Source of the DNA: Pseudomonas asiatica
Lineage (GTDB): Bacteria; Pseudomonadota; Gammaproteobacteria; Pseudomonadales; Pseudomonadaceae
Length of the DNA: 64,000 bases
Assembly (NCBI RefSeq): GCF_009932335.1
Contig: NZ_BLJF01000001.1
Location: 4,032,501-4,096,500, forward strand
Reading direction: 5' to 3'
The notes under the pieces: model-generated
What the model was told of the DNA's origin: nothing
Database searches by the model: none
The model's input: only the letters and a program-made list of their open reading frames with translations
Part shown: positions 13,711 to 63,673 of the stretch, piece by piece
How the letters are laid out: every line of letters starts with the position of its first letter
How positions within the stretch are numbered: position 1 is the first letter of the stretch
Program-made: the position numbers and the translations under genes

Positions 13711-13798
13711 CTGTGGGAGCGGGCGTGCCCGCGAACACCGGCAAAGCCGGTGCCATGCAACGCGGCGCCTGTTTCGCGGGCACGCCCGCTCCCACAGT
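13711..13798. repeat. REP pair, class with CGCGGGC-x-CGCCCGC core
   Basis: Inverted CTGTGGGAGCGGGCGTGCCCGCGAA copies between trpS and zapE, both minus-strand genes. It may limit read-through or stabilise the upstream mRNA end. Confidence 0.88.
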
Positions 13799-36413: not shown

Positions 36414-36526
36414 GCCTGTACTGGCCTCATCGCCAGCAAGCCAGCTCCCACAGGGACAGCGCATGGCTTGAGGCCGATGCGGTCGAGGTGGGAGCTGGCT
36501 TGCCGGCGATGGGCTGCGCAGCAGCC
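36414..36526. repeat. REP pair, CGCCGGCAAGCCAGCTCCC class
   Basis: Inverted CATCGCCAGCAAGCCAGCTCCCACAGG and GTGGGAGCTGGCTTGCCGGCGATG copies just beyond the 3' end of the deacetylase-like gene. Confidence 0.88.
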
Positions 36527-42387: not shown

Positions 42388-43554
42388 ATGAATACCGCCG
42401 TGAACGTCAACGTCGTGCATGAGTCCGAAGCCCAGCGCCAGCATGCCCGGGTACGCATCCCCGCCAAGCTGCGGTTCCTCGACCCTCAGCGCCAGGCCCA
42501 CGATGTGAAGGTCGACGACCTCTCCGCCGGTGGCCTGAGCTTCCACACCAAGCAACAACTGTCGGTTGGCGACGTGCTCCGCGGGCGGCTGCAGTTCACG
42601 GTCGACAACCTCGGCCTGTCGATGGACATCGAGTTCCAGGTGCGCTCCTACAACCCGGGCAGCGGCCGTACCGGCGCGCAGTTCCAGAACCTCGAGCTCC
42701 GCGACATCGCCACGCTGCGCCACATCATCACCTCGCACCTGTCGGGTGAGCTGATCACTGCTGGCGATGTGCTCAGCACCCTGCAGCGCGACAACTTCAC
42801 CAAGGCGCGCAAGCAAAAGGACGGCGGTGCCGGCCTGAGCGCCTTCGGCCGCCTCAAGGCGGTCACCGTCACCCTCGGCGTGTTCGTGGTCGGTGTCGCC
42901 GCCTTCGGCTTCATCGCCAAGTCGCTGTACGGCATGTACTTCGTCAGCCATGCCGAAGCCGGCGTGGTCGCGGTACCCACCACCAACGTCACCATGCCGC
43001 GCGACGGCACCGTGAACAGCCTGGTCGAAAGCGGTGGGCAGATCGCCAAGGGCGCGCCACTGGCCAGTTTCACCACCAGCATGCTGGACATGCTCAAGGG
43101 CAACCTGGAAGACGCACAACTGGAGCCGGCGAAGATCGAGGAACTGTTCGGCAAGCAGCTGTCCGGCACCCTCACCAGCCCGTGTGATTGCGTGGTTGCC
43201 CGCCAGCTGGTGGACAACGGCCAGTACGCCGCCAAGGGCCAGCCGATCTTCCAGCTGATCCCGCGCACCACCAACCCGATGATCGAGGCGCGCTTCACCT
43301 ACCGCCAGTTCGACGAGGTCAAGCCAGGTACCCGGGTCAACTTCCAGGTAGCCGGCGAAGACGAAGTACGCACCGGCCAGATCGTCAGCAGCGCCAGCCT
43401 CAACAGCGAAGACCTGGCCGCCGACATCCGCGTGCAGATCAAGCCCGACAGCGCCCTGCCCGCCGAACTCGCCGGTCGCCCGGCTTCGGTCAACAGCGAC
43501 CGTGGCCCATCGCTGAACTGGCTGATCGACAAAGCCATGGCCCGTGGGCTGTAA
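42388..43554 (+). CDS. alg44: c-di-GMP-binding alginate co-polymerase Alg44
   Basis: 388-aa protein with an N-terminal PilZ domain (R17-x3-R21 and D44-L-S46 in DDLSAGG), which binds cyclic di-GMP and is required for alginate polymerisation. It has one membrane helix (about residues 162-185) and a periplasmic membrane-fusion-protein-like domain. The positions of the PilZ ligands equal those known in P. aeruginosa Alg44. It links second-messenger control to the polymerase Alg8. Confidence 0.96.
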   Translation: MNTAVNVNVVHESEAQRQHARVRIPAKLRFLDPQRQAHDVKVDDLSAGGLSFHTKQQLSVGDVLRGRLQFTVDNLGLSMDIEFQVRSYNPGSGRTGAQFQNLELRDIATLRHIITSHLSGELITAGDVLSTLQRDNFTKARKQKDGGAGLSAFGRLKAVTVTLGVFVVGVAAFGFIAKSLYGMYFVSHAEAGVVAVPTTNVTMPRDGTVNSLVESGGQIAKGAPLASFTTSMLDMLKGNLEDAQLEPAKIEELFGKQLSGTLTSPCDCVVARQLVDNGQYAAKGQPIFQLIPRTTNPMIEARFTYRQFDEVKPGTRVNFQVAGEDEVRTGQIVSSASLNSEDLAADIRVQIKPDSALPAELAGRPASVNSDRGPSLNWLIDKAMARGL

Positions 43555-43566
43555 GAGGACAAGCCT

Positions 43567-45099
43567 ATGACTAGCAGACAACCCGATACCTGTGGGAGCT
43601 GGCTTGCCGGCGATCGAGTGCGCAGCACTCGCCCAGCAGATGTATCGCCTGCACTGGCCAATCGCCGGCAAGCCAGCTCCCACAGGGTTCGTGTGAACCT
43701 TGGTTTGTGTGGCCTGGCCATGGCCATCGCCTTGGCCGGCTGTGCAGGCCTGCCCGACCAGCGCCTGGCCAACGAAGCCATGAAGCGCGGTGACACGGCA
43801 CTGGCCGAGCGCAACTACAAGGCGCTGGCCGACCTGGGCTACAGCGAAGCGCAAGTGGGCCTGGCCGACATCAAGGTCGCCACCCGCGATCCGGCGAAAA
43901 TCAAGGAAGCCGAGGCCACCTACCGCGCCGCGGCCGCCATTTCGCCGCGTGCCCAGGCGCGCCTTGGCCGCCTGCTGGTGGCCAAGCCCGACAGCACCCA
44001 GGCCGAGCGCGAAGAAGCCGAAACCCTGCTCAAGCAAGCCGCCAAGCAGGGCGAAAGCAACACCCTGATCCCGCTGGCGATGCTCTACCTGACCTACCCG
44101 CAGAGCTTCCCCAAGGTCAACGCGCAGCAGCAGATCGACCAGTGGCGCGCCGCCGGTAACCCGGAAGCGGGCCTGGCCCAGGTGCTGCTGTACCGCACCC
44201 AGGGCACCTACGACCAGCACCTGGGCGAAGTGGAGAAAATCTGCAAGGCCGCCCTGAACACCACCGACATCTGCTACGTCGAACTGGCCACCGTGTACCA
44301 GAAGCGTGGCCAGGCCGACCAGCAGGCTGCCCTGCTCGGCCAACTCAAGGCTGCCTACGCCCGTGGCGCAGTGCCGGCCACCCGGGTCGACAGCGTTGCC
44401 CGGGTACTGGCTGACCGCAGCCTCGGCCAGACCGACGAAAAAACCGCCAAGGACCTGCTCGAGCAGGTGGCCCCGGCCAACCCGGCGTCCTGGGTCAGCC
44501 TGGCGCAACTGGTGTACGACTTCCCCGAGCTGGGTGATACCGACCAGCTGATGGCCTACATCGACAAGGGCCGCGAAGCCGAACAGCCACGCGCCGAACT
44601 GTTGCTGGGCCGCCTGTACTACGAAGGCAAGACCGTGCCTGCGGACGCGCCCAAAGCCGAAGAACACCTGCAGGCTGCCGCCGACGCCGGCGAAGTCAGC
44701 GCCCATTACTACCTGGGCCAGCTGTACCGCCGCGGTTACCTGGGCAACGTCGAGCCGCAGAAGGCCGTCGACCACCTGCTGGCCGCCGCCCGTGGCGGAC
44801 AGAACAGCGCCGACTACGCCTTGGCCCAGCTGTTCAGCGAAGGCCACGGCATTCGCCCGCAACCAGGTAACGCCTGGGTATTCGCCCAGCTGGCCCAGGC
44901 CAACCCGTCGCCGCAGTCCGCTGAACTGTTGCAGCAGCTCGATCAGCAACTTACGCCTGACCAACGCAGCCAGGCCCAGCAACTGCTGGCACAAGAGAAG
45001 CAGGCGCGCGGCAGCATGGCGCAAGGCGCAAACAGCACCCTGGCCATCGAAGCCCTGCAAGACGACGAAAAAGAAGTAACCGGTGAGGACTCGCTATGA
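43567..45099 (+). CDS. algK: Alginate secretion lipoprotein AlgK, N-terminus extended by a REP insertion
   Basis: Outer-membrane lipoprotein scaffold with TPR/Sel1-like repeats that aids AlgE placement and bridges to AlgX. The mature part (from [13 protein letters not shown]) is full length. The ATG at 43567 has AGAGGA 7 nt upstream. Codons 9-40 (43591-43686) are a REP element, after which [20 protein letters not shown] forms the signal. Removing exactly these 96 nt would give a normal short signal [21 protein letters not shown] at 43693 with AGGG upstream is an alternative start inside the repeat boundary. The stop overlaps the algE start (ATGA). Confidence 0.9.
43589..43686 (+). repeat. REP pair inside the algK coding sequence
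   Basis: Exact 26-nt inverted arms (43589-43614 and 43661-43686, CCTGTGGGAGCTGGCTTGCC type) flank 46 nt. The element lies within the 5' coding part of algK, and its length past codon 8 (96 nt) preserves the frame. Confidence 0.95.
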
Positions 45100-46574
45100 C
45101 GCTCAATCCCTTCGTGAAAGCTGGCATCGGCCTGAGCTTCGCCCTGCTGTGGTCCTGCCCGACCCTGGCGGAAATGACCGCTGAAAAGAACTTCGGCCTG
45201 GATGTGAAGATCACCGGCCAGTCGGAAGACGACCGTGACCTGGGCACCCGCTCCGGCGGCGACGTCAACGGCCTCGGTCTTGATCTGCGCCCTTGGGTAT
45301 ATGGCGAGCGTGGCAACTGGAGCGCCTATGCCATGGGCCAGGCAGTCACCGCCACCGACACCATCGAAACCGACACCCTGCGCCAGAACGACGACGGCAC
45401 CAGTACCGATACCGCTGCCGACGGCCGTGAACAGGACAAGAGCTACCTGGCCATGCGCGAATTCTGGGTCGGCTACAGCGGCCTGACCGCCTACCCCGGC
45501 GAGCAGCTGCGTTTCGGCCGCCAGCGCCTGCGCAGCGACGATGGCATGTGGCGTGACACCAATATCGAGGCGCTGAACTGGACCTTCGACACCACCCTGC
45601 TCAAGGCCGACCTGGGCGTGGCCCAGCGCTTCAGCGAATACCGCACCGACCTCACCGAACTGGCCCCGGAAGACAAGGACCGCACACACCTCTACGGCAA
45701 CGTCGCCACGCAGTGGACCCCTGGCCACTGGGTCGGCGTTCGCGCCCACCACACCCACGACGGCGGCAGCCTGAAGAACCCGGGCGAAACCGTCGATGCG
45801 CTGGACAAGACCCGCACCGGCGACCTCACCTGGCTGGGCCTGGAAGCCAACAGCGACGCCTACAACTGGCGCAACGACCACACCGTCAACTACTGGGGCA
45901 GCGTCACCTGGCTGACCGGTGACCGCGACACCCTCAGCAGCCAGGTCGTCGGTGACGAAACCGTGGCCACCGGCAAGCAGAGCGGTGACGTCAACGCCTG
46001 GGCCACCGACCTCGGCATCCGCCTGCGCCTCGACCCGCAATGGCAGGTCGGTGCGGCCTACGCCCGTGGCAGCGGTGGTGGTGGCGACGACGGTTCGAGC
46101 AACTACGAGCAGACCGGCCTCGAGAGCAACCGCTCCAATTACACCGGCACCCGTTCGCGCGTGCACCGCTTCGGTGAAGCCTTCCGTGGCGAGCTGGGCA
46201 ACCTGCAGGCGGCCACCCTGTTCGCCTCCTGGCAGCTGCGCGACGACTACGACGCCAGCTTCATCTACCACAAGTTCTGGCGTGTCGATGGCAACCAGAA
46301 CATCGGTTCCAGCGGCATCAACGCGGTAGTCAATGACAACGGCGTGAACCGCCCGCTGGTCGATGGTGAAAAAGACCTTGGCCAGGAAATGGACGTGGTC
46401 GTGACCAAGTACTTCAAGCAAGGCCTGCTGCCGGCTTCGATGAGCCAGGCCATCGACGAGCCATCTGCCCTGGTGCGCCTGCGCGCCGGTGTGTTCAAGC
46501 CGGGTGACGCCTACGGCAAGGAAGCGGACTCGTACATGCACCGCGCCTTCGTCGACGTGATCTGGCGCTTCTGA
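45096..46574 (+). CDS. algE: Alginate outer-membrane porin AlgE
   Basis: 492-aa beta-barrel protein that exports alginate. A signal peptide of about 25 residues ends PTLAEM-type, then repeated amphipathic strands with aromatic girdles and charged turns (for example [27 protein letters not shown]). The C-terminus ends DVIWRF with a terminal Phe, as needed for outer-membrane assembly. It overlaps algK by 4 nt. Start at 45096 is supported by GGTGAGGAC upstream. Confidence 0.95.
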
Positions 46575-50739: not shown

Positions 50740-50827
50740 CCTGTGGGAGCCGGCTTGCCGGCGATGGGCTGCGTAGCAGCCGCTGTCTACCGCTGGGCAA
50801 GGCTTCGCCGGCAAGCCAGCTCCCACA
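50740..50827 (+). repeat. REP pair inside the alginate operon, between algL and algI
   Basis: Inverted ACCTGTGGGAGCCGGCTTGCCGGCGAT and CGCCGGCAAGCCAGCTCCCACAG copies in the algL-algI gap. A smaller inverted repeat at about 50719-50736 (CACCCCAATGTGGGGGTG) sits in front of it and has no T-run, so full termination is not expected. Confidence 0.9.
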
Positions 50828-62414: not shown

Positions 62415-62522
62415 AGGTCTGGCCCTATCGCCGGCAAGCCAGCTCCCACAGGTACTGCGTAGTTTTCGAGATATGCAACGATCCTGTGGGAGCTGGCTTG
62501 CCGGCGATGAGGCCCTCATAGG
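62415..62522. repeat. REP pair, CGCCGGCAAGCCAGCTCCC class
   Basis: Inverted CTATCGCCGGCAAGCCAGCTCCCACAGG copies between the LysR-type gene and emrB. Confidence 0.9.
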
Positions 62523-63559: not shown

Positions 63560-63673
63560 GTGCCTGTACTGGCCCTATCGCCGGCAAGCCAGCTCCCACG
63601 GGGTCAACACAGCCCTTGGGCAATGCGGAGTACCTGTGGGAGCCGGCTTGCCGGCGATAGGGCCGGTACAGGC
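63560..63673. repeat. REP pair, CGCCGGCAAGCCAGCTCCC class
   Basis: Inverted TGCCTGTACTGGCCCTATCGCCGGC type copies between the LysR gene and the partial universal-stress-like gene; right arm ends about 63673. Confidence 0.88.

Follow-up and report, generated by a model that had tools for sequence, protein, structure and literature searches.

The algK locus and its inverted repeat

The window, i.e. the whole stretch of 64,000 nucleotides of Pseudomonas asiatica DNA that was analysed, carries an alginate operon whose open reading frames and Pfam domains give the order algD-alg8-alg44-algK-algE-algG, with all genes in one direction. The gene names other than algK are presumed from this order and from the domains. 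algK itself is identified by two PDB chains, both named AlgK, 7ula_B (E 1.5e-279) and 3e4b_A (E 1.6e-194), whose matches begin at query residue 59-60, and its place between alg44 and algE is supported by the Pfam domains of the neighbours. The features at the locus are as follows.

42388..43554, + strand: alg44, the upstream gene (open reading frame; Pfam PF07238 (PilZ) and PF13437 (HlyD_3); name presumed)
43552-43554, + strand: alg44 stop codon
43554..43559, + strand: Shine–Dalgarno (SD)-like AGAGGA of algK (from the sequence, by eye)
43567..45099, + strand: algK, an open reading frame of 510 aa for the alginate export lipoprotein, with the REPIN (two inverted REPs) in its first 40 codons
43567..43588, + strand: lead codons, from the algK start to the REPIN (from the sequence)
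43589..43614, + strand: forward REP arm, CCTGTGGGAGCTGGCTTGCCGGCGAT (sequence and repeat search)
43612-43634, + strand: GATCGAGTGCGCAGCACTCGCCC with the inner stem, overlapping the REPIN loop; sole match of GATCGAGYGCRCAGCRCTCGCCC in the window's genome
43615..43660, + strand: REPIN loop, 46 nt (from the fold)
43661..43686, + strand: reverse REP arm, complementing the forward arm exactly
43693..43695, + strand: in-frame GTG 3′ of the repeat, put forward earlier as an alternative start (from the sequence)
43696..43743, + strand: hydrophobic region and lipobox LAGC, with the Cys codon at 43741-43743 (from the translation)
45096..46574, + strand: algE, the downstream gene, overlapping the algK stop (Pfam PF13372)

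The gap between alg44 and algK is 12 nt, and the ATG at 43567 comes after the alg44 stop. The two REP arms are 26 nt long and exactly complementary, and in the repeat search the inverted pair stretches to 34 nt at 91% (43581-43614 and 43661-43694). Both arms carry TGTGGGAGC and TGGCTTGCCGGC, a GT(A/G)G tetranucleotide and then a palindrome, which is how REPs are defined in PMC3686654. As the stretch 43591-43686 measures 96 nt, it adds 32 in-frame codons to algK. The original prediction that a REP pair lies in frame ahead of the hydrophobic part of the signal peptide is thus borne out, as is the lengthening of the AlgK n-region, with the 32 codons lying between start and lipobox.

The predicted RNA fold of 43530-43760 has an energy of -127.9 kcal/mol compared to -93.65 kcal/mol for shuffled sequences (sd 4.38, z -7.8), and none of 200 shuffles folded as well. 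The exact arms, this fold and the genomic copies of the repeat (see below) rule out a chance palindrome. No known structured RNA was matched in 42388-45100 among 4,227 Rfam families (E up to 1). The segment from start codon to lipobox Cys recurs letter for letter in the window's own genome (L081), in genome G071 (L082) and in a P. inefficax record (L002), which makes an error confined to the window's assembly unlikely.

The REP family in the P. asiatica genome

The REP consensus TGTRGGAGCNRGCNTGCCNGCGA has 540 exact matches in the window's genome, whereas the reversed control has none, showing that the algK element belongs to a repeat family and is not a product of chance. By eye, the algK core is the commonest type among about 100 places listed for this genome. 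Four matches to PF01797 (Y1_Tnp) lie above the cut-off; they are candidate RAYTs that may serve the algK REP type.

We tested 36 REP clusters in 464 kb of this genome (a further 400 kb plus the window), and under a strict test, which may miss cases, the algK cluster was the only one with an open frame, an SD-like start ahead and a coding-like score behind. Codon-score tests placed none of the five other clusters of the window (13712-13796, 36429-36452, 50742-50827, 62427-62508 and 63635-63658) in frame inside a gene, and gave no clear in-frame case with both flanks coding among 30 other REP loci and the window, with weak scores at L330 and L319. The layouts of the 36 clusters (F, forward head; R, reverse head) are RF in 15, which are very constant in length (80-82 nt), FR in four and single in 17. 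The FR clusters measure 85, 85 and 86 nt, and 94 nt in algK, whose copy is therefore 8-9 nt longer. The inner stem of the window's element occurs once in its own genome and once in G199, both times at algK, and is absent from G389.

REP pairs at algK across Pseudomonas

The algK loci compared here come from non-random samples of loci and genomes. One set holds the best 80 of 117 relatives of the query (6.1-7.5 kb each), with a bias to near relatives. The other holds 220 further loci: 30 from a draw of 398 genomes of the genus, of which 397 had a match at E 0.001 or better; 30 from 80 more genomes hand-chosen among the rest, with 18 of their listed places left out; and 160 further retrieved loci. 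The best 150 places of the draw all entered the analysis. Many of these 220 belong to the same species as the first set, and identical loci were merged. With the window, 301 loci were parsed, a lipobox was found in 299 (not in L131 and L298), and 254 were distinct. REP heads were taken as TGTRGGAGC with one mismatch allowed, and the segment as start codon to Cys.

REP heads of both orientations lie in the start-to-Cys segment of 135 of the 254 distinct loci. The layouts are FR in 113, RF in 18, other mixed in four, R in 12, F in five, RR in two, FF in one and none in 99. Chance matches occur in the single-head classes, for example in five loci whose signal peptides have 24 aa, so our claims rest on the pairs. 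Heads are concentrated in the segment, with 300 in 33.5 kb. The 572 kb flanking it hold 21, chance-like by eye, of which 6 fall in the upstream 221 kb and 15 in the downstream 351 kb. Among the best 80 of 117 relatives, the segment holds 72 occurrences of the strict REP core and the remaining 581 kb, which cover alg44, algK, algE and parts of the neighbouring genes, hold none; this set has a REP pair in 53 loci, a single head in 6, a long segment with no recognised REP in 2 and a short signal peptide in 19. Among distant loci, with an AlgK no more than 69% identical to that of the window, two of 52 distinct segments have a pair (L133 and L140).

The element had implicitly been taken as peculiar to this strain, and this view is contradicted by the pairs in the same segment of 53 of the best 80 of 117 relatives. 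The site is also diverse, holding several REP types in both orders and in all three frames relative to the ORF: FR pairs have the forward head in each of the three frames, and RF pairs occur in two. By eye, frame and stem relate L015, L017, L020, L036 and the window, in classes F0R1 and R0F2. These two classes share the stem GATCG.G.GCGCAGC.C.CGCCC in one frame, where it codes for a basic D-R-x-R-S-x-R-P ahead of the h-region, and a similar peptide piece persists by eye where the REP arms are lost (L033 and L039). The predominance of FR at algK across species (113 of 254, with RF in 18) is unlike the RF-rich genome of the window. REP-bearing algK with Pseudomonas-like n-regions was also met in L040 and L050, titled Pantoea sp., and in L059, titled a Paucimonas MAG, which are perhaps mislabelled.

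The reading frame through the REPIN

The parsed starts lie from 30 nt before to 25 nt after the alg44 stop in 250 of the 254 loci, with an SD-like motif in 224. As this parse was built to pick starts that share the frame of the Cys, a statement that the frame is always kept would be circular, and the search was therefore repeated blind to frame. It accepted all three frames and took, close to the alg44 stop, whichever ATG or GTG came first among those with an SD-like motif. Of the 128 REPIN loci in six clear pair classes, 126 had this start in the lipobox frame, none had it in another frame and two yielded no start; for the 126 other loci the three counts were 93, 1 and 32. A stricter SD motif gave 125, 0 and 3 for the REPIN loci and 88, 1 and 37 for the others. 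Between the REPs of the 128 loci there is no stop in the frame of algK, whereas 57 and 85 of these loci have one in the other two frames.

Codon and indel tests were made in one clade (fluorescens/koreensis), which holds class F1R1, a class other than the window's with P. koreensis, P. fluorescens PfAR1 and P. siliginis among its named members. An alignment of 77 F1R1 sequences has 10 gap classes (3, 6, 15, 48 and 102 nt), each a multiple of 3, of which only single gaps are informative since the segment ends were set in frame. The lead diverges by 0.28, 0.33 and 0.52 at codon positions 1, 2 and 3, with the third highest in 60 of 60 resamples. In the loop of this clade there is no third-position excess (0.385, 0.375 and 0.317) and no purifying selection on its peptide was seen, suggesting that the peptide itself is hardly constrained. 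On this comparison the frame is guarded, but the residues are not.

The in-frame blind starts, the lack of stops in the algK frame and the third-position excess in the lead are evidence, from one position in many species, that the REPIN in algK is translated. The signal peptides would then be long, with 39-71 residues and a median of 57 with the REPIN (n = 128) compared to a median of 23 without it (n = 101), and the median net charge of the n-region is +3 and +1, respectively. A restart after the repeat had been proposed as the alternative. An in-frame ATG, GTG or TTG that follows the last REP and leaves at least 14 codons to the Cys is present in 53 of the 128 REPIN loci, nine of them with an SD-like motif; such a codon is wanting in 75, and one backed by an SD-like motif in 119. 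As a general account the restart thus fails, given also the in-frame upstream start in nearly all loci, but the GTG at 43693 does exist in the window and a restart there is possible.

Arm types and their change in place

In class F1R1 the leads and loops are recognisably homologous in most rows, while the arms are of five types, which we label A-E. As the lead, the loop and the hydrophobic region mark the locus, changes of arm type are visible in place. Both arms could be typed in 67 of the 77 sequences and were of the same type in 58, compared to a mean of 17.1 and a maximum of 29 in shuffles that ignore relatedness. Among pairs with loops at most 12% different, 12 have unlike arm types, six in both arms and six in one, and a stepwise change is seen from L205 (AA) over L228 (AB) to L182 (BB). 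The mean pairwise divergence is 0.40 in the lead, 0.16 and 0.19 in the arms and 0.39 in the loop. The simplest account of these sequences would be an overwriting of the arms by copies from the genomic pool, with the loop left in place.

The five types were also counted in 36 hand-chosen genomes, and the 32 with one type in both algK arms were tested for a match, four with chimeric arms being excluded. In 24 of these 32 the algK type is also the most frequent of the five in the genome, compared to a shuffle mean of 6.9 and maximum of 15 (relatedness again ignored), and its mean share of the genome's five types is 0.50 vs 0.20. The eight mismatches are G182, G242, G127, G371, G166, G002, G128 and G011, and in G166 and G002 the algK type is the rarest. 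Across the sampled loci, comparison thus shows a segment occupied in many species, with its frame kept, with arm types differing on a shared background, and with algK arms that mostly agree with each other and mostly belong to a type common in the host genome.

Between L195 (G182) and L188 (G236) the differences are a single substitution and, in one arm, a 15-nt in-frame change. This arm variant occurs outside algK nine times in G182 and twice in G236, is absent from G206, and has its sole exact match at algK in G372, G097 and G066; three of its four carriers hold the sole exact match there. A 15-nt loop insertion was considered as a circulating variant but is not supported as one, being present in a single copy, at algK, in its carriers G127, G002, G130 and G251, with one copy outside algK in G182 and none in G206 and G029. 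Loop pieces look local to algK.

Alleles without the REPIN

In-frame deletion-like alleles were found by eye in L024 (P. soli), beside L088 with matching flanks, and in L019 (P. juntendi), L110 and L077 (P. botevensis). These alleles and the short REP-free signal peptides indicate that the REPIN is dispensable for an open algK. A clean empty site in relatives had been named as proof of an insertion; such sites are uncommon, and where near relatives have a short allele, its first codons are often different as well (MIPHKKSAS.. vs MTSRQPDT.., by eye). Nor did we find the situation named in advance as speaking against an insertion, in which all close relatives are identical and share a conserved start downstream.

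In the aligned mature part, AlgK of L002 (P. inefficax, F0R1), L001 (P. pudica, REP-free) and L083 (F2R1) is 98-99% identical to that of the window. The unlike n-regions of these three suggest that algK 5′ ends are exchanged between species.

The mRNA hairpin had also been placed on the algK start. In the FR classes the first REP head begins 20-50 nt 3′ of the first base of the start codon, and the predicted openness from SD motif to start has a median of 0.42 both with the REPIN (128 loci) and without it (94 loci; p 0.20). A closing of the start by the hairpin is therefore not seen in this comparison, and that part of the original prediction was not upheld.

A translated REPIN, probably refreshed from the genomic pool

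We consider it quite probable, on comparative sequence evidence, that a REPIN lives in the translated n-region of the AlgK lipoprotein signal peptide, with its arms refreshed from genomic REPs and its frame under selection. Translation would start at the codon just past alg44 and read through the hairpin, and the roughly 30 hairpin-coded residues, several of them basic, would be removed along with the signal peptide. The algK REPIN would still be part of the genomic REPIN population, with arms overwritten by copying or gene conversion from other REPs, either RAYT-linked or recombinational, and selection would remove frame-breaking variants. Export could go on, as an n-region mainly needs solubility and basicity, which the REP-coded residues would provide. 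In effect, the reading frame would filter every tolerated event at algK.

A permissive n-region is probably not the whole answer to why algK holds the element, since of 36 clusters the algK one alone passed the strict test and the rest of the alg stretch has no strict core in the best 80 of 117 relatives; the alternatives are a targeted site and a hairpin that serves a purpose at the boundary. algE and algG also begin, by eye, with signal-peptide-like sequence, and no strict core was met outside the algK segment in the 581 kb covered, so permissiveness alone does not explain the algK site. A selected role at the alg44/algK boundary is possible, and we hold it as a tentative reading that the hairpin, translated too, is kept as RNA between the polymerising (algD-alg8-alg44) and export (algK onward) parts, where it would stabilise the upstream message or set the ratio of the two parts, which is compatible with a translated, refreshed REPIN. 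The restriction to one site in 581 kb of the best 80 of 117 relatives, the likeness of the arms (58 of 67) and their lower divergence than lead and loop, and the recurrence of several REP arrangements at the site are all consistent with such a function. However, dimers with two like arms are the usual state in P. putida and P. entomophila as well, according to PMC3733652, the element is dispensable (19 of the best 80 of 117 relatives have REP-free short signal peptides, and L024, L019 and L110 are deletion alleles), and both the unchanged start accessibility and the lack of an Rfam match speak against a functional RNA. A related reading, to which we give a similarly modest weight, is that a mobile REPIN has been domesticated at a fixed place, where it would serve both as a coding n-region and, between alg44 and algK, as an RNA or DNA element, re-acquired or refreshed repeatedly across Pseudomonas and with a type tracking the host REPs. 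Somewhat less likely still, a RAYT or recombination would prefer the DNA just past alg44, such that REPINs keep landing there and those in frame survive. The different orders and frames at one site (FR in three, RF in two) fit repeated landing, as do the fewest changes on the AlgK tree (252 loci), 40 for presence of the REP pair and 63 for all classes, and the tendency of unidirectional REPs to lie near the 3′ end of the upstream ORF, as noted in PMC3733652. But the tree was built with FastTree from a single protein, and species seem to have exchanged n-region alleles, so that the counts overstate insertions and are not trusted as numbers of independent events; F0R1 and R0F2, which by eye share the inner stem GATCGAG..CGCCC in the same frame, are not independent, and no target motif or duplication was noticed.

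Two further explanations are much less likely. In the first, the REPIN would lie outside the gene, with AlgK starting 3′ of the repeat. For P. putida in general, PMC3733652 proposes that most REPs at ORF 5′ ends may not be coding, the starts being misplaced, and it judges many N-terminal intragenic REPs in the same way. The GTG at 43693, and some such codon in 53 of 128 REPIN loci, would allow this. The suspicion does not fit the algK sequences, in which 75 of 128 have no such codon and 119 none that is SD-backed, the frame-blind upstream start is in frame in 126 and never out of frame, no stop interrupts the algK frame between the REPs, the lead has codon periodicity and the gap classes are multiples of 3; we regard misannotation as very improbable. 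A single recent insertion in this strain or species agrees with the exact-complement arms, of the type commonest by eye among the places listed for the window's genome, but is refuted by the pair in 53 of the best 80 of 117 relatives and by a loop common to related species. Compared to these alternatives, we retain a translated REPIN refreshed from the genomic pool as the most probable reading.

Relation to known repeats

The algK element resembles the Pseudomonas REPINs (GTAG-1 doublets) in its inverted REPs, its GT(A/G)G head and palindrome, its high copy number and its host-specific types, and Pseudomonas REPINs go with RAYT transposases, for which the PF01797 proteins of the window's genome are candidates. 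Some REPs between genes of one operon stabilise the upstream mRNA, as in E. coli malE-malF. That REP is an operon-boundary hairpin as at algK, but it is untranslated, whereas the algK hairpin lies inside the next gene. An extragenic place, which is usual for REPs and not required of them, as intragenic REPs have been published, is not what the algK REPIN has. The most abundant 16-mers of SBW25 have 1,067 copies, and just 14 of these overlap genes (PMC3116915). REPs thus lie mostly between genes, in contrast to the algK element, which is translated and sits at one gene position in 135 of 254 surveyed loci.

PMC3733652 describes REPs inside the recB ORF that occupy nearly the same position in Xanthomonas campestris and X. 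oryzae. These also lie in ORFs, but in two species, compared to more than 100 algK loci with frame evidence. The same source describes Rickettsia palindromic elements (RPEs) as in-frame palindromic insertions in likely working protein genes, a manner of working that the algK REPIN shares. By the classification there, RPEs are a different sequence family, found in many genes per genome, whereas the algK elements are GT(A/G)G REPs in one gene across species; moreover, the algK arms mostly follow the REP population of the genome, unlike RPEs, and we do not claim RPE membership for them. The term 'algK' is absent from the main text of PMC3733652, and the gene may figure in the intragenic REP list of its Additional file 3. 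In the open literature, searched outside supplementary tables and partly judged by titles and the openings of abstracts, no paper on a REPIN or REP in algK was found.

The comparison points to a translated REPIN at a fixed place in algK of many Pseudomonas species, with arms mostly following the host REPs. REPINs are held to be mostly intergenic and P. putida REPs at 5′ ends are suspected to mark misplaced starts, and algK contrasts with both. REP spread and homogenisation, by RAYT transposition or by gene conversion, become testable at this single locus, and the natural alleles with and without the REPIN allow its effect on algK expression to be tested. Two algK-like places, either on separate contigs or at a distance of about 16 kb or more, were found in each of G027, G046, G059, G193, G265, G319 and G380, and some Pseudomonas may have a second alginate-type operon.
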